64,000 bases of DNA from an uncultured Pelagibacteraceae bacterium (GTDB taxonomy: Bacteria; Pseudomonadota; Alphaproteobacteria; Pelagibacterales; Pelagibacteraceae): positions 1 through 64,000 of the forward strand of contig CACHTB010000002.1 in NCBI GenBank assembly GCA_902582735.1, written 5' to 3'. A program made the translations under genes and the position numbers. A model generated the notes under the pieces. The model searched no databases. It saw only the letters and a program-made list of their open reading frames with translations, and was not told the DNA's origin. Below, in pieces: positions 2,935 through 60,316 of this stretch (position 1 is its first letter; every line of letters begins with the position of its first letter).

Positions 2935-3898
2935 ATCTTTTGAGGTAAATAAAGTAAAATTTTCAAACTTTAAATCGATTCTTTTATACGGTCTGAATAA
3001 GGGTTTTAAGGAAGAAGTAATAAAATCCTATATTTTGCCAGGGTTTTCAGGAGAAATATTACGTTATGAGGAATCAGAAGTTTTAGATAACAAAGACACA
3101 ATACTTGAAGGTTTAATTAATGGATCATTATTTAATGAGGTGAAGCTTATGATAATATCGAGATCTTCCAATAAAATACTTGATTTTATAGAGGAATTTT
3201 TAGAAAGAAACATATCAAATGTTCAAATAGTAATAAATTCTGAAAATTTAGATAAAAAATCAAAGCTAAGAAGTTTGTTTGAGAAAGATAAAAAATTAGT
3301 TTGTATACCTTTTTATGAGGACAACAATCAAAATCTAAATAATTTTGCAATTAATTTTATAAGAGAAAAAAATATAAAAATTTCACAAGAGACCGTAAAT
3401 TTAATTGTTGAAAGAGCGCGTGGAGATAGAGGTAATTTAAATAATGAACTTCAAAAGTTAGAATCTCTATCCCAAACAAGAAAAAAAATCTCACAAGAAG
3501 ATATATTTAATTTAACAAATCTTTCGGAGGATTATGGAATATTTGAACTCGTAGATAATTATTTGGCGAAAAATAAGATTAAAGTTTCAAGAATTCTTAA
3601 TGAAAATAATTTTGTAAATGATGATTGCATTTTAATACTAAGAACATTGCTCAATAGATCAAAAAGGCTTTTAAAATTAAAGAATATTCAAAAAGAAAAA
3701 GATAATATTGATGAAGTAATTTCATCTTATAAACCCTCAATATTTTGGAAAGAAAAAGATTTAGTTAAACAACAAATTGAAAATTGGTCTGAAAAAGAGA
3801 TTAAAGAAAAAATTTATCAAATATCCAATTTAGAGATTTTAACCAAGAAAAATACATCCTCAATTAATCTTGTATCAGATTTAATCAGCAATTTTTAA
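2924..3898 (+). CDS. holA: DNA polymerase III delta subunit
   Basis: Position after leuS-lptE; HolA-like features (LLYGLNKGF, GDRGNLNNELQKLE). Confidence 0.85.
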   Translation: MIIKSFEVNKVKFSNFKSILLYGLNKGFKEEVIKSYILPGFSGEILRYEESEVLDNKDTILEGLINGSLFNEVKLMIISRSSNKILDFIEEFLERNISNVQIVINSENLDKKSKLRSLFEKDKKLVCIPFYEDNNQNLNNFAINFIREKNIKISQETVNLIVERARGDRGNLNNELQKLESLSQTRKKISQEDIFNLTNLSEDYGIFELVDNYLAKNKIKVSRILNENNFVNDDCILILRTLLNRSKRLLKLKNIQKEKDNIDEVISSYKPSIFWKEKDLVKQQIENWSEKEIKEKIYQISNLEILTKKNTSSINLVSDLISNF

Positions 3899-4743
3899 TA
3901 GTTTTCTTTTATTATTTTGATTAATCGATCAAGTTGATCAACACCCTTATACTCAAAAATTAAAGTACCAGTGTTATTTTTTTTATTATTTAAAAATACT
4001 TTCATTCCAATTTTATAACTTAACTGATTTTCAATATCTATTGAATTTGGATCCTTAGACTTAATTGAACTTTTATTACTTTTAAATAATCTAGCAAGAG
4101 CTTCTGCTTGTCTAACCGATAATTTTTTTTTGATTATTTTCTCAGCTAATAACTCAGAATTATCTAATCCAACTAAAATCTTGGCATGGCCCGGGGATAT
4201 TTTGTCATTGATAATATGCTCAATCACCTTAGCTGGAAGACTTAATAATCTTATGCAGTTAGATATATGAGCTCTGCTTTTTCCAATAAATTTCGCAACT
4301 TTGTCTTGGTCATAATTAAATTCATTAATTAATCTTCGATATCCCTCTGCTTCCTCAATAGGGTTAAGATCTTTTCTTTGAACATTTTCAATAATTGCAA
4401 ATTCAAGAGACTTGAGATTGTCTACATTAAGAATTACTGCTGGAACTTCGTGCAAGCCAGCATTTTGGGCTGCTTGCCATCTTCTTTCTCCTGCTATCAA
4501 TTCATATTTTTCATTGCTATTTTCTGATGCTCTTACAATTATTGGCTGAATAATTCCTCTTTCACGAATTGATGCTGTGAGTTCTTCTAAGCTATTTTTG
4601 TCAAAGTTTTTTCTTGGTTGATATTTATTTGGAATAATAGAACTTATAGATATTTTATTGCTTGTAATCTTTACATCACTATCTCCGATCAGGGATGATA
4701 AGCCTCTTCCTAATCCTTTTTTATTTTTAAACGGATTTATCAT
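3895..4743 (-). CDS. parB: Chromosome partitioning protein ParB
   Basis: KKGLGRGLSSLIGD N-terminus, PNKYQPRKNFD, ELIAGERRWQAA, IIENVQRKDLNPIEEAEGY. Confidence 0.97.
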   Translation of the reverse strand: MINPFKNKKGLGRGLSSLIGDSDVKITSNKISISSIIPNKYQPRKNFDKNSLEELTASIRERGIIQPIIVRASENSNEKYELIAGERRWQAAQNAGLHEVPAVILNVDNLKSLEFAIIENVQRKDLNPIEEAEGYRRLINEFNYDQDKVAKFIGKSRAHISNCIRLLSLPAKVIEHIINDKISPGHAKILVGLDNSELLAEKIIKKKLSVRQAEALARLFKSNKSSIKSKDPNSIDIENQLSYKIGMKVFLNNKKNNTGTLIFEYKGVDQLDRLIKIIKENY

Positions 4744-5540
4744 GCAGCAGTCTCGATTTCTTTTTCTTGTTCTAAAAATTCTTCAGTGAAACTAAAATAC
4801 GCTTTACTGCCTGAACAAAGCTTATCGTAGATTAATACTGGAACTCCATGAGAGGGTGCCTCTGATAACCTTACATTTCTCGGCACTGCAGTATTGTAAA
4901 CTTTTTCTTTAAAAAAATTTCTTGCTTCCGTCTCAACCTGACTGGACAACTTATTTCTCTTATCATACATTGTAAGGAGGATGCCTCTTATCTCGAGGAT
5001 AGGATTTAAATTCAATTTAATCCTTTCAATAGTTTTCATTAATTGAGTTAGGCCCTCTAAGGCGAAAAACTCCGTCTGAAGCGGCACTACCAAAGCATCA
5101 GAGGCAACTAAGGCCATAATTGTGAGAAGACTAAGAGATGGAGGACAGTCAATTAGGATGTAATGATAGGATACTCTAGAATCATTTAAAATAGAGGCTA
5201 ATTCGTCTTTTAATTTAAATGCTCTTCGGTTGTCACCAGCAGTTTCAACCTCAAGTCCTGATAAATCTACGTTAGAAGTTATAATATCTAAGTTTTTAAA
5301 TTCAGTTTTCTGTATCACGTCAGATATTTTTTTGTTTCCATTTAAAACATTATAAATTGTATTATCAGATGTACCTGAGTTGAATAATCCAAGACCTGTT
5401 GTGGCATTTCCTTGTGGGTCAAGGTCAATCACAAGAATTCTTTTTTCTTTGAGAGACAAACCAGCTGCCAAATTAATAATTGTAGTTGTCTTCCCCACTC
5501 CACCTTTTTGATTTATGACTGAAATAATTTTTCTATTCAT
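4740..5540 (-). CDS. parA: Chromosome partitioning ATPase ParA
   Basis: Deviant Walker A INQKGGVGKTTT, IDLDPQGNATTGLG. Confidence 0.97.
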   Translation of the reverse strand: MNRKIISVINQKGGVGKTTTIINLAAGLSLKEKRILVIDLDPQGNATTGLGLFNSGTSDNTIYNVLNGNKKISDVIQKTEFKNLDIITSNVDLSGLEVETAGDNRRAFKLKDELASILNDSRVSYHYILIDCPPSLSLLTIMALVASDALVVPLQTEFFALEGLTQLMKTIERIKLNLNPILEIRGILLTMYDKRNKLSSQVETEARNFFKEKVYNTAVPRNVRLSEAPSHGVPVLIYDKLCSGSKAYFSFTEEFLEQEKEIETAA

Positions 5541-6174
5541 ATTTTTTAAGATTTGATATTTTCACAATGATGGACTCGTCGTTGGTTAGACTTTTCCTCT
5601 CTTCATAATCAAATTTCCAATTTTTCATTGCATCTTTTAAAATCTTTTTTCCACTTTTTCCTAAAAATAAAATTATATATTTAAAATTTTTAAAATTAGT
5701 TTTCGCAATTTCAAAAATTACTGGCAAAGGTTTAAAGGCCCGTGAAATTATAACGTCTGTAATTAAATTTTTTTCATTAAAAATATTTTTTTGATAAATT
5801 TCCGCATCCAGTTTAAATTTTTTGGACATTTCTCTTAAGAAATTACTTTTATGATAACTTTTTTCATAAAAAATCACTTTAAATTTAGTTTTTTTCGAAC
5901 TCATAATAATACCTAAGACAATTCCTGGTAAACCAGCCCCTGACCCTAGGTCGGTACACGTATTAATATCATTTTTGTCAATAAAATCAATAGTTTGCAT
6001 ACTATCAGCAATATGCCTTGATTTTATTGATTTTTCTGTACTTTTGCTAATTAAATTTATTTCCCTATTTTTCAAAATTATGTCTTTTGAATATTCATCT
6101 AACCTTTCGAATGTTTCACGTGAAACATCTAAATTAAATTTTGGGACTTTTTTTAAAAAATACGAATCAATCAA
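5533..6174 (-). CDS. rsmG: 16S rRNA (guanine527-N7)-methyltransferase RsmG (GidB)
   Basis: [13 protein letters not shown] and [13 protein letters not shown] motifs, parA-adjacent. Confidence 0.95.
6112..6127. promoter_or_regulatory. parS site (perfect TGTTTCACGTGAAACA) inside rsmG
   Basis: Exact 16-bp palindrome read directly; adjacent parAB. Confidence 0.95.
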
Positions 6175-8042
6175 GCTATATGCTTAATAGACTTTCTTTT
6201 AAGATGAGACAATAAAATATATACAGCTGCAGGCGTTATCCCGTCTATCCTAAGGGCTTGACCCATTGTTTTCGGCCTTATTTTCTTAAATTTTGATTTA
6301 ACCTCATTTGAAAGTCCTGAGAAATTGTCATAATTAATATTATCTGGGATAATTAAATTTTCGTCTCTTTTAAAAGCTAAAATATCAGCTTTTTGCTTCT
6401 TCAAATAACCTTTGTAATGAGAGTTTATCTCTAATTGCTCATCTATTTCACGTGAAACACAAGGTATTTCTGGCCAAATTTCCCTTATTTTACACATATT
6501 AACTGATTTTTGACCTAATATTTGGAATGCAGTTCTACTAATTCCGTCCTTTGCAATATTAATACCATAATTTTCAACTTTTGATGGGGTAATTTGTAAT
6601 TTTGACATCTGATTCTCAATTTTTGTTAATTTAAAATGTTTTTCTTTAAATATTTTAGCTCTCTCTTTATAAACAAATCCCAAATCAATTCCTTTTTGAG
6701 TTAATCTAACATCTGCGTTATCTGACCTTAATGATAATCTATACTCAGCTCTTGAGGTAAACATTCTATATGGTTCCGCAACACCCTTTGTAACTAAATC
6801 ATCTATCATCACTCCAATATATGCATCTGATCTATCAAGTATAAAAGGTTCTTCGCCTTTAATAGATAGAGCAGAATTTATTCCAGCGATTAAGCCTTGA
6901 GCGGCAGCCTCTTCATATCCAGTTGTGCCATTTATTTGACCAGCAAGATAGAGATTTTTGATTTTTTTAGTCTCTAAAGTTAAGAATAGCTCCCTTGGAT
7001 CAATATAATCGTATTCAATAGCATACCCAGGCCTTAATATTTTAACACACTCTAAACCCTTGATTTTACTACATATTTCTTGCTGTATTTCTGACGGTAG
7101 TGAAGTTGAAATGCCATTTGGATATATAGTATTATCATTTAAGCCTTCTGGCTCCAAAAAAATTTGGTGCCGCTTCTTATCAGCAAATTTTTTTATTTTA
7201 TCCTCTATAGATGGACAATATCTTGGACCTACTCCTTGGATGCTACCAGAATACATAGCACTTCGCTGAATATTTTTGGAAATAATTTTATGAACTTCCT
7301 CATTGGTATAAGTCATTCTGCAAGAGATTTGTTTGTTTAAATTTTTTTTGGTTAAGAAAGAAAAAAAATATGGATCTTCGTCTGCATGCTGAGCTTCCAA
7401 ATTTTCAAAATTAATTGTTCGTGCATCTAATCTTGGTGGAGTTCCGGTTTTTAATCTACCAATTTTAAAATTAAACTTTTCTAATTGTTCACTTAAGCCT
7501 TTTGATGGTTTTTCGTCATATCTCCCTGCAGGGGTTTTTTTCTCTCCAATATGTATAAGACCATTTAAAAATGTGCCAGTTGTTAGAATTATCTTAGATG
7601 ATCTGATTTCTTTACCAGATTTAGTATTAAAGCCAATTATAGCATTATTTTTAAAGTTGAAGCTTATTACAGGATCAGAATAAATACTTAAATTACAGCA
7701 GTTTACAAGTTTTTCTTGCATAAATTTTTTGTATAATGATCTATCACTTTGTGTTCTAGGTCCTCTAACTGCGGGACCTCTACTTCTATTTAGGAGCCTA
7801 AATTGTATTCCTGATTTGTCTGCAACTTCTCCCATAACACCGTCTAAGGCATCTATTTCTCTAACCAAATGACCTTTACCAAGTCCACCAATTGCAGGGT
7901 TGCAGGACATTTCCCCTATAGTTTCAAACTTATGTGTGAATAAAGCAGTGTAAACTCCCAATCTTGCAGATGCTGCTGCCGCTTCACAGCCAGCATGACC
8001 ACCCCCGATAACCACTACATCAAACGATAACTCATTTTTCAT
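6171..8042 (-). CDS. mnmG: tRNA uridine-5-carboxymethylaminomethyl modification enzyme MnmG (GidA)
   Basis: [55 protein letters not shown]. Confidence 0.98.
6444..6459. promoter_or_regulatory. Second parS-like site (TATTTCACGTGAAACA, one mismatch) inside mnmG
   Basis: 15/16 match to the parS consensus, ~330 bp from the perfect site. Confidence 0.8.
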
Positions 8043-11255: not shown

Positions 11256-12245
11256 TTATAAATTTTTATTTATAAGATGTTCTAGAAGCTTAATATGATC
11301 TTCGTTATCATTCAAACACGGTATCATATCAAAGTTTTTTCCCCCAGATTTTAAAAAACTCTCTTTACCTTGAATTGCGATTTCTTCTAAAGTCTCAACA
11401 CAATCTGATGCAAAACCAGGACAAATTACTAAGATATTATTTATATTGTTGCTCGGTAATTCTTCTAAAGTTTTATCAGTATAAGGTTTTAACCATTGTT
11501 CGGGACCGAACCTTGATTGGAAAGTTGTTCTTATCTTAACATCTTTGAACTTTTCTGAGATTAGTCTTGTGGTTTTATGACAGTAACAATGATAGGGATC
11601 ACCTTTATCAAAATATTTTTGTGGAATTCCATGGTAAGAAGCAATGATCAGGTCTGGTTTCCAATTAATCTCAGAAATTTTTTTATTTAATGAATTAACA
11701 AGTGCATCAATATAAAGTACCTCTGACTCATAATGTGGAACAATCTTTAAACTTGGTTGCCATCTCATATTCATAAGAGATCTGTATACTTCATCACATA
11801 CCGTTGCTGTTGTTGCTGCAGCATATTGTGGATATAAAGGAATAATTAAGAGATGTTCACAACCAGCTTTGTGTAGTTCATTTATTTTACTTTTTATACT
11901 TGGGTTTCCATATCTCATTGCATAATCAATTATAATTTTTTCATTTTTAATCAATTTGTCAATTTTTTCGGCCTGTAATTTTGTGTAGTATCTTAAAGGA
12001 GACATGTCATCTTTTTCCATCCAAATTTCTTTATATGCTTTTGCGGTTTTAGAGGGTCTAAATGTTAAGATGAAAACATTCAGAACGAATTTCCATAATA
12101 TCGGATTAACTTCTATAACTCTTCTATCAGAGAGAAATTCTTTAAGATACCTTCTTACATCAAACCAACTTGTGGATTCCGGGGTTCCAAGATTAATCAA
12201 TAAAACTCCAGTTTTTCCAAATTTGATTTTTGGGTGGTCTTCCAT
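11256..12245 (-). CDS. hemH: Ferrochelatase
   Basis: GVLLINLGTPES, SYHGIPQKYFDKGDPYHCYC, CPGFASDCVETLEEI. Confidence 0.97.
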   Translation of the reverse strand: MEDHPKIKFGKTGVLLINLGTPESTSWFDVRRYLKEFLSDRRVIEVNPILWKFVLNVFILTFRPSKTAKAYKEIWMEKDDMSPLRYYTKLQAEKIDKLIKNEKIIIDYAMRYGNPSIKSKINELHKAGCEHLLIIPLYPQYAAATTATVCDEVYRSLMNMRWQPSLKIVPHYESEVLYIDALVNSLNKKISEINWKPDLIIASYHGIPQKYFDKGDPYHCYCHKTTRLISEKFKDVKIRTTFQSRFGPEQWLKPYTDKTLEELPSNNINNILVICPGFASDCVETLEEIAIQGKESFLKSGGKNFDMIPCLNDNEDHIKLLEHLINKNL

Positions 12246-13246
12246 TAATTAAACGATCTCACAATTTTTACTAATTTTTCAACCATTTCAATTTTTGTTT
12301 GAGGTTGAATTCCATGTCCTAAATTAAATATATAAGGATGATCTTTGAATATATTTAAATATTTTTTAGTCTCTTTTTCTAAAGTTTCTTCATCTTGTAA
12401 CAGAATTTTTGGATCTAGACCTCCCTGAATTGGAATATCTATATTTTTTAAAATATCTTTTGGATCTGTATCATAATCGATACTAACAGCACTTGGCTTA
12501 ACAATATCACAAAAGTTCTTGTAATCTTTTATACCTCTAGGAAAACATATAACTGGAACACCAAGACTTTTAGTATATTCTACAAGACTTAATGTTGGTA
12601 TGTAAATATATTCAGGAATATTTTTTTCAAGCAGTCCAGCCCAACTATCGAATATTTGTATAATCGTAGCACCTGCTTCAACTTGTTTTTTAATATGAAT
12701 TTTAAGAAACTTATCAATAATCGATAGTAATCTATTAATTAAAAATTCATCTTTAAAAAAATCTTCTTTAAGTTTTTTTTTAGGAGAGATTTTGTTGATC
12801 ATGTATACTAAAATTGTCCATGGGGCGCCAACAAACCCTATTAAGTCTTTTTCATCTTTGTTGATCTTATTTGATGTTATGTTAATTGCCTTATAAACGG
12901 AATTTAACTTAAAAGAAAAATCTACTTCATCAATATTCTTTAATTCATCTAGATTTAAGTTACCTAGCTTTGGACCAAAATTTTTCTCAAACTCAACTTT
13001 TTGGTTTAAACCATATGGTAACATTAAAATATCTGAGAAAATAATTGCAGCATCAAAATTAAATCTCTCCATAGGTTGTAAAGTTATTTCAGACGCTAAA
13101 TTTTCACTAAGGCACAATTTTATAAAATCTTGATTTTTACTCCGTATTTCGCGAAATTCAGGCAAATATCTCCCAGCTTGTCTCATTAACCATATTGGAT
13201 TTAGATTACTTTTTTTCTGAACAATACATTTTTGAATTGGGGTCAT
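12245..13246 (-). CDS. hemE: Uroporphyrinogen decarboxylase
   Basis: PIWLMRQAGRYLPEFREIR, IIFSDILMLPYGL, FNLGHGIQP. Confidence 0.97.
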   Translation of the reverse strand: MTPIQKCIVQKKSNLNPIWLMRQAGRYLPEFREIRSKNQDFIKLCLSENLASEITLQPMERFNFDAAIIFSDILMLPYGLNQKVEFEKNFGPKLGNLNLDELKNIDEVDFSFKLNSVYKAINITSNKINKDEKDLIGFVGAPWTILVYMINKISPKKKLKEDFFKDEFLINRLLSIIDKFLKIHIKKQVEAGATIIQIFDSWAGLLEKNIPEYIYIPTLSLVEYTKSLGVPVICFPRGIKDYKNFCDIVKPSAVSIDYDTDPKDILKNIDIPIQGGLDPKILLQDEETLEKETKKYLNIFKDHPYIFNLGHGIQPQTKIEMVEKLVKIVRSFN

Positions 13247-13532
13247 TTATAAATAGATCAATTAATATTTATTGTATTAGTATTATGATATGTGAATTAC
13301 GTAAATTATCTAATTTGCACACTTTATATACAATTTATTAACATTTAATTGCAAATTTAAAGCTTATTTATCAATGTAAGTTAATGATTATTACCAATTA
13401 AAGAATTCTGGTTTCTAACTAATTAACATGTAAAAAAATGTTTAATATCAGTAATAATTTATAATATTAATTACAGATATTTATTAATCGCTAATATTTA
13501 AACTTTAGTGATATTTTATTGACATTTTATAC
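13247..13532. other. Putative chromosomal replication origin (oriC) region between hemE and the PPDK-regulator gene
   Basis: Largest intergenic gap in the window (286 bp), hand-counted G+C 48/286 (~17%), hemE/RP001-type flank as in Caulobacter and Rickettsia, parABS nearby. No exact TTATCCACA DnaA box seen. Confidence 0.65.
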
Positions 13533-14351
13533 ATGAAAAATGAACATCAAATTTATTTAATTTCGGATTCAACTGGAGAAACTTTAGATAGAATCTTCTT
13601 AGCACTAAAAGCACAGTTTACAAATTTTGAATACGAGCTTAATAATTTCTCTTTCACTAGAACAGAGAACCAAATTCAACAGATTTTAGATAAAGCAAAA
13701 AAAAGAGAGAATCCAATTATACTTTACACAATAGTTAATAGTAAGCTTGCAAAGTATTTAGCAGACCAAGCTCAATCGAAACAAATTCCCTGTTTTGGTG
13801 TTTTAGGTGATTTAATACTAAGCTTTTCTAAAATATTAAATCAGAGAGCATCGCACGAACCAAGTGGTCAACACGTACTCAATGAAGAATATTATCAAAG
13901 AATAGAAGCCATACAATTTACAATGAACCATGATGATGGAAATCAAACTGATGATCTGGAGAAATCCGATATTATTTTGTTAGGGGTTAGTAGAACAAGC
14001 AAAACTCCAACCTCAATTTATTTGGCCAATAAAGGTTACAAAACTTCAAATATTCCATTAGTTAATGAAAAATCAATACCTACAAGAATAACGAAAAAAA
14101 ACTTTAAACCTTGTGTTGTTGGTTTAACAACTGAAGCTGAAAGATTATTTGATATAAGAAAGAATAGACTCAATAGTTTGAAGGAAAATGAAAGCACAGG
14201 GTACACAAATTTAGAAAAAATTAAAGAAGAGATTGAAAACTCAAAAAAAATTTTCAGAAAGAATCAATGGCCAACAATAGATGTTACAAGAAAATCTGTT
14301 GAGGAAACCGCTGCTTCAATCATAAAAATTTATGAGATAAAAAATAGATAA
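13533..14351 (+). CDS. Pyruvate, phosphate dikinase regulatory protein (PPSR/DUF299 family)
   Basis: IYLISDSTGETLDRIFLAL, DIILLGVSRTSKTPTSIYLANKGYK, NEKSIPTRI. Confidence 0.93.
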   Translation: MKNEHQIYLISDSTGETLDRIFLALKAQFTNFEYELNNFSFTRTENQIQQILDKAKKRENPIILYTIVNSKLAKYLADQAQSKQIPCFGVLGDLILSFSKILNQRASHEPSGQHVLNEEYYQRIEAIQFTMNHDDGNQTDDLEKSDIILLGVSRTSKTPTSIYLANKGYKTSNIPLVNEKSIPTRITKKNFKPCVVGLTTEAERLFDIRKNRLNSLKENESTGYTNLEKIKEEIENSKKIFRKNQWPTIDVTRKSVEETAASIIKIYEIKNR

Positions 14352-33114: not shown

Positions 33115-34767
33115 ATGAGAGAAAAAAATTTAAACTTTGATAGACAAAAAATATTTAAACTTTTTCAAGATAAAAATTATGCTAAAATATCTAAGATCTC
33201 AAAATCTATATTAAAGACATATACAAATGATAAAGAGATCTACAAGATAATAATATTTAGTGAAATTAACGAAAAAAATCTAGAAAAAGCCCTCAAAGTC
33301 TCAGACAAACTAATTACGTTAAAGGATGAAGCTGAGACAAATTATATTCATGGTAATGTTCTCAAACTTCAAAATAAGTTTGAAGAAGCAATAATTTTTT
33401 ATAAGAAAGCAATTAATTTTAAAAAAGACTTTTACGAAGCCTATAATAATCTTGCTAGTTCTCAAAAAAAAATTGGTTTAGTTGATGATGCTATTCAAAA
33501 TTATAATACCTCTATTAAAATAAAAAAAAATAATCTTGAGGCATATTTTAATTTAGGGAATTTATTTTATAATGAAAAAAAATTTGATGAAGCTCTTAGA
33601 TCTTACAAAAAAGTAATAGAGATTAATGAACAATTTCCTAAATCTTATTTTTTGATAGCACAAATAAAATCAATTCAAGGAAAATTTGATGATGCAAAAA
33701 CGTTTTTTTTAAAAGCAATCGAGAAAGATAAATTTTTATCAGAGGCTTATGTCCATTATGTAAATACGAGAAAAATAAAACCTGATGATAATATTGTAAG
33801 TACTCTTGAGGAGCTTTTAAAAATTGAAAATCTTGAAAATAAGTTAATAATAGATTTTTCATATGCACTAAGTAAAATATATTTTGATATTGATAAAATT
33901 GATCTTGGATTTCAATTACTTAAAAAAGCAAAAGATTTGTATTTAAGTTCAAATAATTTTTCAATAGATGAAGAAAAAAATCATTTTAAAAAAGTTCGAG
34001 AATATTTTTTAAGCAATGAAGTCTCTAAAATAAAGATACAAAATACATATAAAAAAAAACCAATTTTTATAATTGGTATGCCAAGGTCTGGTACTAGTCT
34101 CATTGAGCAAATAGTTTCAACTCACTCAAATGTTTATGGTGCTGGTGAATTAACAACACTTCCCAAAATCATGCATAAATCTATTTGGGATAAATATACA
34201 AACTCTAAGGAATTATTAACTCTTATTAGAGAGAAGTACTTAAGAAAAATCTCAGAATTTAAAGTTAATCAAGAATTTGTAGTTGATAAGATGCCTTTTA
34301 ATTTTTTTTATATAGGATTTATTTTAACATCCATTCCTGAAGCAAAAATAATACACATACACAGAAATCCAATGGCGGTCTGCTGGTCAAATTTTAAAGC
34401 AAATTTTTTTGACAATGTTGGTATGAATTATGCTCATAAATTAGAAACTATAGGTGAATTCTACTTGATTTATAATGAGATAATGAAATTTTGGAGTGAA
34501 ACTTATCCTAATAGTTTGATTAACATTGATTATGATAAATTTGTAATGGATTATGAAACAAGTTCTAAAAATATAATTGCTGATATTGGATTGAATTGGG
34601 AGAATGAAATTTTAAAATTTCACGAAAACGATAGAGTAGTTGAGACAAACTCCTTGTTGCAAGTCAGAAGCAAAGTGTACAAAGATAGTTCTAAAAACTG
34701 GAAAAAATACGAGAAACACTTATCACCTATCATGGAAATACTTAAAAATAACAATATAGAATTCTAA
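33115..34767 (+). CDS. TPR-repeat / sulfotransferase fusion protein
   Basis: TPR repeats (AYNNLASSQKKIG, AYFNLGNLFYNEKKFDEAL) then KPIFIIGMPRSGTSLIEQIVSTH (PAPS-binding). Confidence 0.92.
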   Translation: MREKNLNFDRQKIFKLFQDKNYAKISKISKSILKTYTNDKEIYKIIIFSEINEKNLEKALKVSDKLITLKDEAETNYIHGNVLKLQNKFEEAIIFYKKAINFKKDFYEAYNNLASSQKKIGLVDDAIQNYNTSIKIKKNNLEAYFNLGNLFYNEKKFDEALRSYKKVIEINEQFPKSYFLIAQIKSIQGKFDDAKTFFLKAIEKDKFLSEAYVHYVNTRKIKPDDNIVSTLEELLKIENLENKLIIDFSYALSKIYFDIDKIDLGFQLLKKAKDLYLSSNNFSIDEEKNHFKKVREYFLSNEVSKIKIQNTYKKKPIFIIGMPRSGTSLIEQIVSTHSNVYGAGELTTLPKIMHKSIWDKYTNSKELLTLIREKYLRKISEFKVNQEFVVDKMPFNFFYIGFILTSIPEAKIIHIHRNPMAVCWSNFKANFFDNVGMNYAHKLETIGEFYLIYNEIMKFWSETYPNSLINIDYDKFVMDYETSSKNIIADIGLNWENEILKFHENDRVVETNSLLQVRSKVYKDSSKNWKKYEKHLSPIMEILKNNNIEF

Positions 34768-34770
34768 ATA

Positions 34771-35622
34771 ATGATTTTTTGGATAGCATCCTACCCCAAA
34801 AGTGGAAACACATGGATAAGATTACTTCTTTGTTCTTATTACTTCACTGAAGATGGTATATTTACTGACGATGCATTATTAAAAAATATTGGGCAATTTC
34901 CTGAGAAAAAACACTTCGAAAAGTTTGATTACAATATATCAGTGCCTGGAGACACAGCTCAACACTGGATTAAAGCGCAAGATACAATTAATCAAGACAA
35001 AAAATTTAAATTTTTTAAAACACATAACTTTTTAGGGAAAATTGGTAGCACACAATTCACAAACGAAAAAAATACTGTGGGTGCAATTTATATTCTAAGA
35101 GATCCACGAAATGTCATTACTTCCCTTAAAAATCACTTTGAAATGAATTATGAAGACTCATTAGAATTTATGCTTAATGAAAGAAAATTTACATATGATT
35201 TTTTTAAAAAAAAAGATTATAGTGATTTTCAATTTTTAAGTTCATGGGAAAAGAATTATCAAACCTGGATAAATAATAAAATTTTTCCAACATTAGTCAT
35301 TAAATATGAAGATTTAATTAAACAAACTTACGAAGAATTTAAAAAAATTGTAAAATTTATAGATAATCTAATGGAAAAAGATAATGAATTTAATAAAAAT
35401 AAAGCACTTAATGCTTTATCAAGCACAAGTTTTTCAAACTTAAAAAAAATTGAAGATACAAATGGTTTTTCTGAGTCATTAGATTCAAAAATGAAAAATA
35501 GAAAGATACCTTTTTTTCATTTAGGACCAGAAAATAATTGGAAAAATAAGTTGGATAAAGATTTTCAAATTAAGGTAAATGAAGTTTTTAAAAAGAATTT
35601 AGAAGAATTGCATTATCTGTAA
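34771..35622 (+). CDS. Sulfotransferase domain protein
   Basis: FWIASYPKSGNTWIRLLL (5'-PSB loop), FKTHNF, YILRDPRNVITS. Confidence 0.92.
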   Translation: MIFWIASYPKSGNTWIRLLLCSYYFTEDGIFTDDALLKNIGQFPEKKHFEKFDYNISVPGDTAQHWIKAQDTINQDKKFKFFKTHNFLGKIGSTQFTNEKNTVGAIYILRDPRNVITSLKNHFEMNYEDSLEFMLNERKFTYDFFKKKDYSDFQFLSSWEKNYQTWINNKIFPTLVIKYEDLIKQTYEEFKKIVKFIDNLMEKDNEFNKNKALNALSSTSFSNLKKIEDTNGFSESLDSKMKNRKIPFFHLGPENNWKNKLDKDFQIKVNEVFKKNLEELHYL

Positions 35623-57307: not shown

Positions 57308-58801
57308 ATGAAATTATTTTTTCTACTAGGAAACCAACTATTTGACGAAAAATACTTAGAAAAGTTTAAAAAAGACCATATTTTTTATATGGCTGAGGAT
57401 TTTCAACTTTGCACTTATGAAAAACACCATAAAAATAAAATTTTGCTGTTTCTCTCGTCCATGCGGTCGCATGCAGACAGATTAAAAAAAAGTGATTTTA
57501 AAATTGAATACTCATCTATAGAAGAGAAAACATTTAAGTTGGACTACACTGAAAAATTAAAAAAAATTATAAAATCAAAAAAAATTACTGAAATTTCTAG
57601 CTTCGAAATTGAAGATAAATTTTTTGAAAAAAAAATAAGTCAGTTCACCAAAAAAGAAAATATCAAGTGGAATATTGTTCAATCACCAATGTTTTTGAAT
57701 TCGAGACAAAATTTTAAAAAATATTTATCAAAATCAAAAAAACCTTTTATGGCTGTCTTTTATAAAGATACACGAAGAGAGTTAGACATTTTGATAAAAA
57801 AAGACGGAACCCCCGAGGGAGGAAAGTGGAGTTTTGATGAAGATAATAGGAACAAACTACCTAAAAATATTTCAATTCCAAAATTTCCAAAAATAAAAGA
57901 GACATCTCATACAAAAAAATTAAAACACATCATTGAAAAATACTTTAAAGATCATCCTGGTAATGTGGAAAACTTTTGGTTTGCAACTGAATATGAAGAT
58001 GTTGTTAAACTATTAAATTTTTTTATTAAAGAAAAATCTAATCTGTTTGGCGATTATGAAGATGCTGTTGATCAAAAAGATAATATCTTATTTCACAGTG
58101 CTTTAAGTCCTTATTTAAATTTAGGATTAATTACTCCTGAACTTATATTGAAAAAAATTCTAGATTTTCATAAGAAAAATAAAATTAGATTAAATTCATT
58201 AGAGGGATATATCCGTCAAGTAATAGGGTGGAGAGAATTTATGAGAGGTATTTATCAAAGTTATTCTAATGAAATGGAAACGAGAAACTTCTTTAAACAA
58301 AATAGAAAAATGAAAAAAAGTTGGTACGATGGATCAACTGGCCTTCCACCATTAGATTACGCAATCAAAAACGCGTTAAAATATGGATGGTCACACCACA
58401 TAGAGAGATTAATGATTTTGTCTAATATTATGAACCTTTGTGAAATTAAACCTAACATCGTTTATAAATGGTTTATGGAAATGTTTGTTGATTCATCTGA
58501 TTGGGTAATGGTTCCAAATGTTTATGGTATGGGCTTGTTTAGTGATGGAGGTATTTTTGCAACCAAACCTTACATTTGTGGATCCAGTTATTTTATGAAG
58601 ATGATGGACTTTAAAAAAGGAGAATGGTGCAACACAATGGATGGTTTGTACTGGAGGTTTATCAATAGGAATAGAAATTTTTTTTTAAAAAACCCAAGAT
58701 TGTCGATGATGGTGAGAATTTTTGATAAAATGAAAGCTGAAAGAAAAAAACTCATATTAGCCGAGGCAGAAAAATTTATAAAACAAAATACAATCCAGTG
58801 A
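57308..58801 (+). CDS. Cryptochrome/photolyase, FeS-BCP (prokaryotic 6-4 photolyase)-related
   Basis: FFLLGNQLF, FWFATEYEDV, EGYIRQVIGWREFMRGIYQSY, HHIERLMILSNIMNLCEIKP, DWVMVPNVYGMGLFSDGGIFATKPY. Confidence 0.93.
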   Translation: MKLFFLLGNQLFDEKYLEKFKKDHIFYMAEDFQLCTYEKHHKNKILLFLSSMRSHADRLKKSDFKIEYSSIEEKTFKLDYTEKLKKIIKSKKITEISSFEIEDKFFEKKISQFTKKENIKWNIVQSPMFLNSRQNFKKYLSKSKKPFMAVFYKDTRRELDILIKKDGTPEGGKWSFDEDNRNKLPKNISIPKFPKIKETSHTKKLKHIIEKYFKDHPGNVENFWFATEYEDVVKLLNFFIKEKSNLFGDYEDAVDQKDNILFHSALSPYLNLGLITPELILKKILDFHKKNKIRLNSLEGYIRQVIGWREFMRGIYQSYSNEMETRNFFKQNRKMKKSWYDGSTGLPPLDYAIKNALKYGWSHHIERLMILSNIMNLCEIKPNIVYKWFMEMFVDSSDWVMVPNVYGMGLFSDGGIFATKPYICGSSYFMKMMDFKKGEWCNTMDGLYWRFINRNRNFFLKNPRLSMMVRIFDKMKAERKKLILAEAEKFIKQNTIQ

Positions 58802-59179: not shown

Positions 59180-60316
59180 TTACAAAACATACTCTATAAT
59201 TTTGGGAATATATTTTTTAAAATTAAAAAATCCTTTGTTACAATATTTCCATGCGTTTTGGTCAATATTTCTATACAAAAAATGTATCCCTAAATTATTC
59301 GAATTTAAAAAATCTAAATTCTCACCTATTGTTGGATATAAACCACAACAATTTTCAATATTTGTTATTTCACCAATGTTAATAATTTGACAATCAATAG
59401 ATTGATCTTTTAATCTTTTTTCTTGATCCTCAATTAACAGAGACTTAAATTTCAATAATTTCTCACTTAGCTTTATAGATCTATTATCATTGTTATTAGA
59501 AACTAAGTAAATTTTCTTAAAGTTTTTATCTTTAAAGTCAGTAATTTCAAACGAAAGATTATTTTCGAAAACCAACAGGTTTTTTTCTTCAACGTTTTGT
59601 GGGTTGGTAAAATTTTGTTTTACTATATTATAAGATTTTTCAGATACTTTAGGAGGAGCATTTTCATTTAATTTAATATTTTGAAATCTATTGTTAGTGA
59701 ATTTTTTAATATTCCATTCACTTGCTAGGTAATGTTTACCTTGAGTTTGAATACCCGCAACCCATCTCCATCCAAGAGTATTTGATGCAGCATCTCCATC
59801 AAAAAGATGCTGCATAAAAAATTCCGCACCTAATTGCCAAGGTAATTCTAAAGTAAAAATCCAAATACTAGCAAACCACATTCTTGTGTGATTATGTAAA
59901 TAATTATTCTCCTTAAGCTCGTTTACCCATTCGTTAAAGCAGTTTATATTTGTTTTTCCCTCTATAGCAGATAGATACTCTTGATTATTTTGAAACTCAT
60001 TTTTTATCTGATTTAATTCTAGAAGGTAATCGGTCCAAACATTAGGTCTTAATTCTAACCAACCTTTCCAATATGTTCGCCATAAAACTTCCTGAATAAA
60101 TTTTTCATTTTTTGAGAAAGAAAACTTACTTAGTGATTTTTGTATCACTTCTTTTTCATTAATTATCCCATGAGTTATATATGGTGATAAACAAGACACA
60201 TTTAACCTCTTTTCAGGTCCAAAATCAAAATTTCTTAGTCTAGAATATTCTGCTAGATTATTTTCAACAAAATTATCTAATTGATTTATGGCCTTAGCCC
60301 TTGAAGCTTCAAACAT
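59180..60316 (-). CDS. Photolyase/cryptochrome FAD-binding-domain protein lacking the N-terminal photolyase domain
   Basis: NVSCLSPYITHGII, KFIQEVLWRTYWKGWLE, NYLHNHTRMWFASIWIFTLELPWQLGAEFFMQHLFDGDAASNTLGWRWVAG. Confidence 0.9.
   Translation of the reverse strand: MFEASRAKAINQLDNFVENNLAEYSRLRNFDFGPEKRLNVSCLSPYITHGIINEKEVIQKSLSKFSFSKNEKFIQEVLWRTYWKGWLELRPNVWTDYLLELNQIKNEFQNNQEYLSAIEGKTNINCFNEWVNELKENNYLHNHTRMWFASIWIFTLELPWQLGAEFFMQHLFDGDAASNTLGWRWVAGIQTQGKHYLASEWNIKKFTNNRFQNIKLNENAPPKVSEKSYNIVKQNFTNPQNVEEKNLLVFENNLSFEITDFKDKNFKKIYLVSNNNDNRSIKLSEKLLKFKSLLIEDQEKRLKDQSIDCQIINIGEITNIENCCGLYPTIGENLDFLNSNNLGIHFLYRNIDQNAWKYCNKGFFNFKKYIPKIIEYVL

Follow-up and report, generated by a model that had tools for sequence, protein, structure and literature searches.

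A candidate chromosomal replication origin with a conserved DnaA-trio and DnaA-box module beside hemE in a SAR11 bacterium

The window, by which we mean the whole stretch of 64,000 nucleotides analysed here, contains a non-coding gap between the divergent genes hemE and a DUF299/COG1806-type PPDK-regulator gene, both of which are supported by profile matches in agreement with the original prediction (Table 1). The length of 286 bp and the 48 G/C that had been counted by hand proved exact on recount, corresponding to 16.8% GC compared with a window mean of 29.5%. This gap is by far the most AT-rich one in the window, and in two complete relatives the hemE gap ranks third in AT content among about 125 intergenic stretches of at least 200 bp. 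The claim that it is also the largest gap in the window held when open reading frames (ORFs) of at least 60 aa were counted as genes and failed at a cut of 100 aa, where four internal gaps and one running off the window end are longer; the ranking therefore turns on which of the small ORFs are genuine genes. An RNA family search of the gap gave no match, and the possibility that the conserved block in it is coding was rejected because an open reading frame occurs in at most one of 35 relatives in any frame. In the neighbourhood, parA, parB, rsmG and mnmG were found where the original prediction had placed them, while only one of its two parS sites is exact, the other carrying one mismatch; the two lie 6.8-7.1 kb from the gap.

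Table 1. Positions of the candidate origin, its sequence elements and the neighbouring genes in the window.
Feature	Position	Strand	Details and support
parB (3895-4743) and parA (4740-5540)	3895-5540	-	PF02195/PF17762 (parB), PF13614 (parA)
parS, exact GTTTCACGTGAAAC	6113-6126	.	
parS, one mismatch	6445-6458	.	
hemE, uroporphyrinogen decarboxylase, left flank	12245-13246	-	URO-D PF01208, E=2e-82
Candidate oriC, whole intergenic gap	13247-13532	.	286 bp, 16.8% GC, hemE/PPDK-regulator divergent
Four DnaA-trios TAT TAG TAT TAT (3'-[G/T]AT-5' x4), predicted unwinding site	13275-13286	+	column frequencies, phase test
4-bp spacer, conserved first G	13287-13290	+	86% G/14% A, AT-rich surroundings
DnaA box 1, TAATTCACA in window, TTATTCACA in most relatives	13291-13299	-	at most 1 mismatch in 31/35 representatives
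Second box, degenerate, abuts box 1, same orientation	13300-13308	-	+ strand CGTAAATTA; TGTGGATTA in relative L023
DnaA box 3, ATTTGCACA, orientation opposite to boxes 1-2	13313-13321	+	17/35 representatives; 11-bp phase
DnaA box 4, TTATATACA, low affinity type	13324-13332	+	at most 1 mismatch in 8/35; 2 bp from box 3
DnaA box 5, TTATTAACA, low affinity type	13335-13343	+	19/35 representatives
Isolated DnaA-box position, TAATTAACA in window, TTATTCACA in many relatives	13420-13428	+	20/35 representatives
DnaA-box-like TTATTGACA, adjoins PPDK-regulator start	13516-13524	+	23/35 representatives
PPDK-regulator, Kinase-PPPase, DUF299/COG1806, right flank	13533-14351	+	PF03618, E=1.9e-92

On the hemE side of the gap, about 70 bp (13275-13343) hold four DnaA-trios, a 4-bp spacer, two abutting minus-strand DnaA boxes and three plus-strand boxes. 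Column frequencies and box counts were obtained from 35 representatives with less than 80% identity to each other, the close relatives all being Pelagibacteraceae, i.e. SAR11. The plus-strand consensus of these representatives consists of TA(T/G) four times, G, three free bases, TGTGAATAA, (C/T)G..AATTA, four bases and the three boxes, which end in ACA and are stepped by exactly 11 bp. Here TGTGAATAA is complementary to TTATTCACA, which fits TTWTNCACA, the high-affinity DnaA-box consensus of Escherichia coli (PMC6070618), without a mismatch; box 1 of the window deviates from this consensus by one mismatch and from TTATCCACA by two. Within the 12 bases that precede the G, the TA dinucleotides of all representatives are distributed over phases 0, 1 and 2 as 116, 12 and 2, compared with a mean of 28 and a maximum of 44 in phase for shuffled 12-mers. 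Subclades shift the TAG between units (TAT TAG TAT TAT versus TAT TAT TAG TAT) and keep the triplet frame.

Plus-strand box pairs at a distance of 11 bp occurred 42 times in the representatives compared with 3.5 expected, and their gaps carried 5.4 DnaA boxes each compared with 1.6 in shuffled sequences. The gap of the window itself contains six sites with one mismatch to TTWTNCACA (1.7 expected, P about 0.01) and no exact match. The original prediction had correctly reported that an exact TTATCCACA is missing from the gap, although its nearest box with three mismatches is surpassed by four sites with two. It had also raised the possibility that initiator recognition is degenerate or unusual, which is not indicated, since the same assembly encodes a canonical DnaA, which matches TIGR00362 with 485 bits and has the motifs RPRQ and RDHTTV in domain IV, and since relatives carry the consensus TTATTCACA at the same positions. 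Motifs of these two types contact the DnaA box in E. coli DnaA.

Despite hemE identities down to 56%, the length of the gap was maintained at about 261-287 bp in 109 relatives. The alignment across related genomes, which had been proposed as a check, revealed conservation of both the length and the DnaA module. The conserved blocks lie at 13269-13334, toward hemE, at about 13423-13444, and at 13511-13532, the right-hand end, and the middle part is nearly free of conservation. When 148 genomes of the order were screened with R1, a sequence-only model of the module, all 72 same-genus genomes with hemE had their best R1 match 21-50 bp away from the hemE match and in divergent orientation to it. 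The same arrangement was found with weaker E-values in five genomes of three other genera, and the second family of the order gave no convincing R1 match. Neither hemE nor a good module match was found in four same-genus genomes that are 92-96% complete (G107, G116, G158 and G174), which suggests assembly loss at this AT-rich spot; with that contig absent, no good R1 match is to be expected. In two complete single-contig genomes of another genus (G061 and G064), where a hemE-like gene is only 31% identical and no convincing module match was obtained, the origin may lie elsewhere or may have diverged. As a separate observation, hemE is split or broken by stops in G093, G176 and G142.

Genome-scale tests were carried out in two complete single-contig relatives, G068 (hemE 97% identical) and G012. 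A module weight matrix built without the scored genome's own sequence assigned the gap a score of 40.6 in G068 (next site 13.3) and 28.9 in G012 (next site 14.0). Box density alone does not set the gap apart genome-wide, whereas the combined trio and box module does. Since the source genome is a 56-contig draft with a completeness of 68%, skew was likewise taken from these relatives. Detrended GC-skew minima were found about 31 kb from the gap, with the maxima near half a genome away, and gene-orientation minima 31 kb (G068) and 26 kb (G012) from it. In both relatives, the distance of either type of minimum from the gap is at most about 2.3% of the genome, and the whole-genome GC-skew check named in the original prediction supports it apart from this offset. 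The gene-order analysis of symmetric inversions, with 42 of 78 pairs inverted, agrees weakly with an axis from the gap to the terminus; searches with E. coli-type dif consensus sequences yielded nothing convincing to anchor the latter. GC skew at four-fold sites is inverted in both genomes, with C exceeding G on the leading strand and a breakpoint at the hemE gap (G068 L210-L278, G012 L112-L179), while neither total GC skew nor gene orientation departs from the normal pattern. Because of this inverted sign, a fit to the four-fold-site skew placed the "origin" at the opposite pole, a placement that was rejected as the arm-by-arm tables put the breakpoint at the gap.

The boxes, the trios, the strand-switch points, parABS and the uniqueness of the module in the genome together lead us to read the hemE gap as the chromosomal replication origin of this SAR11 bacterium, with a probability, judged from sequence data, of a little over nine in ten. 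The putative origin of the original prediction is thus upheld by its location and AT-richness, the parABS genes, the strand-switch points and, above all, a module conserved throughout the genus and found at no other place in the genome. It appears very improbable that the gap is only a promoter region shared by hemE and the PPDK-regulator gene, with DnaA-like sites that arose by chance or serve transcription control. The divergent genes do need a transcription start somewhere in the gap, and its right-end block is conserved as well, but only three promoter-like sites were detected, below the shuffled mean of 5.2. Moreover, promoters are not characterised by phased trios, an 11-bp box array or opposed box orientation, and parABS and the strand-switch points cluster near the gap.

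An origin located nearby but elsewhere, for example at dnaA-dnaN, 63 kb from the gap, or at the skew minimum, would account for the distance of about 31 kb between the skew minima and the gap, and each genome has at least one 300-bp window with more one-mismatch boxes than the gap. However, the gene-orientation minima flank the gap on opposite sides in G068 and G012, and the combination of trios and boxes is found at the gap only, where it is conserved in 72 of 72 genomes, making such a displaced origin even less probable than a mere promoter region. Least probable of all is the reverse arrangement, in which the hemE locus would be the replication terminus and replication would start at the opposite pole, at about 1.34 Mb in G068. 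Its sole evidence is the four-fold-site GC skew, which is positive toward the gap, the usual sign for a terminus, whereas 62-65% of the coding DNA of each arm is directed away from the gap, in both genomes this is also the direction of 16S rRNA, rpsL, tuf and atpD, and parABS and the DnaA module are situated at this locus.

As the original prediction had stated, the gap contains no TTAA-N7-TTAA CtrA site. Such sites are also absent from the gaps of 18 of the 35 relatives and have no widely shared position, and the gaps of 33 of the 35 representatives lack the CcrM methylation motif GANTC. CtrA was not found in the complete genome G068, whose four OmpR-type regulators all score far below the NCBIfam CtrA cut-off, and ctrA was reported to be absent in Pelagibacter (PMC2877005). 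That no CtrA was found in these genomes explains why the sites are missing from the gap. A degenerate OmpR-type regulator with a recognisable DNA-binding domain and no recognisable receiver domain is encoded about 19 kb from the candidate origin (G068:C1:623477-624086) and is conserved among four complete genomes (G068, G012, G063 and G066).

These results support an alphaproteobacterial origin of the hemE type that has a basal-unwinding core and lacks CtrA control, and in which the action of DnaA is predicted from the sequence elements. Both the Caulobacter and the Rickettsia origin are located at hemE-COG1806, and the gap resembles Caulobacter crescentus Cori and the R. prowazekii origin in its flanks, its AT-richness and the presence of several DnaA boxes (PMC1914354). 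In contrast to these, the SAR11 gap is shorter (286 bp versus more than 400 bp) and has no conserved CtrA sites, with no CtrA found in a complete relative, and its boxes in this window are weaker. In the basal unwinding system (BUS) of Bacillus subtilis oriC, which combines a pair of DnaA boxes with DnaA-trios, a DnaA-box is followed by a short spacer and 3'-GAT-5'-type repeats on the 5'-tail strand, and a BUS is assigned when at least three NAN trios lie on the correct strand at most 16 bp from a DnaA box (PMC8287927). The SAR11 module has four trios on the correct strand, 4 bp from box 1, and shares with B. subtilis the box or boxes, the short spacer, the 3'-[G/A/T]AT-5' repeats, the 5'-tail strand and the same relative orientation (PMC8287927). 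However, in SAR11 the box nearer to the trios is the stronger match, the two boxes abut, and three opposed boxes in 11-bp phase are added. Similar to the low-affinity DnaA-ATP arrays of E. coli oriC, weak boxes are clustered with a 2-bp separation (PMC6070618), but the window has three instead of four boxes per cluster in a much more compact layout, and it has no E. coli-type high-affinity anchor.

Initiation could then proceed by binding of DnaA to the minus-strand box pair, with DnaA-ATP also arrayed along the three plus-strand boxes at their 11-bp spacing. From box 1 a DnaA filament would extend across the spacer onto the four plus-strand trios, the very AT-rich DNA on the hemE side would be stretched and melted, the helicase would be loaded there, and forks would leave in both directions. 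The weak boxes, with their opposed orientation and helical phasing, probably contribute further DnaA by cooperative binding and determine the timing, and no CtrA-type regulator would be used. More tentatively, and at what we consider clearly less than even odds, the SAR11 origin might be minimal and CtrA-free, with a core of about 70 bp that has no high-affinity box in this lineage and with initiation by cooperative binding to weak sites alone.

No sequence-level description of a SAR11 oriC was found in the literature searched, which consisted mainly of openly accessible texts. With a defined core, the control of initiation in a streamlined alphaproteobacterium without CtrA becomes accessible to direct tests, and the alignment of the core over dozens of species provides support from natural variation for the DnaA-trio model. 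In addition, read-depth growth estimates, which in SAR11 have been anchored on an inferred terminus (PMC9589681), gain a fixed reference point. Elsewhere in the window, two neighbouring proteins (57308-58801 and 59180-60316) resemble, by eye, photolyase/cryptochrome relatives. Likewise by eye, positions 33115-35622 encode a TPR-sulfotransferase-like protein and, after it, a second protein resembling sulfotransferases, with a tRNA gene lying downstream.
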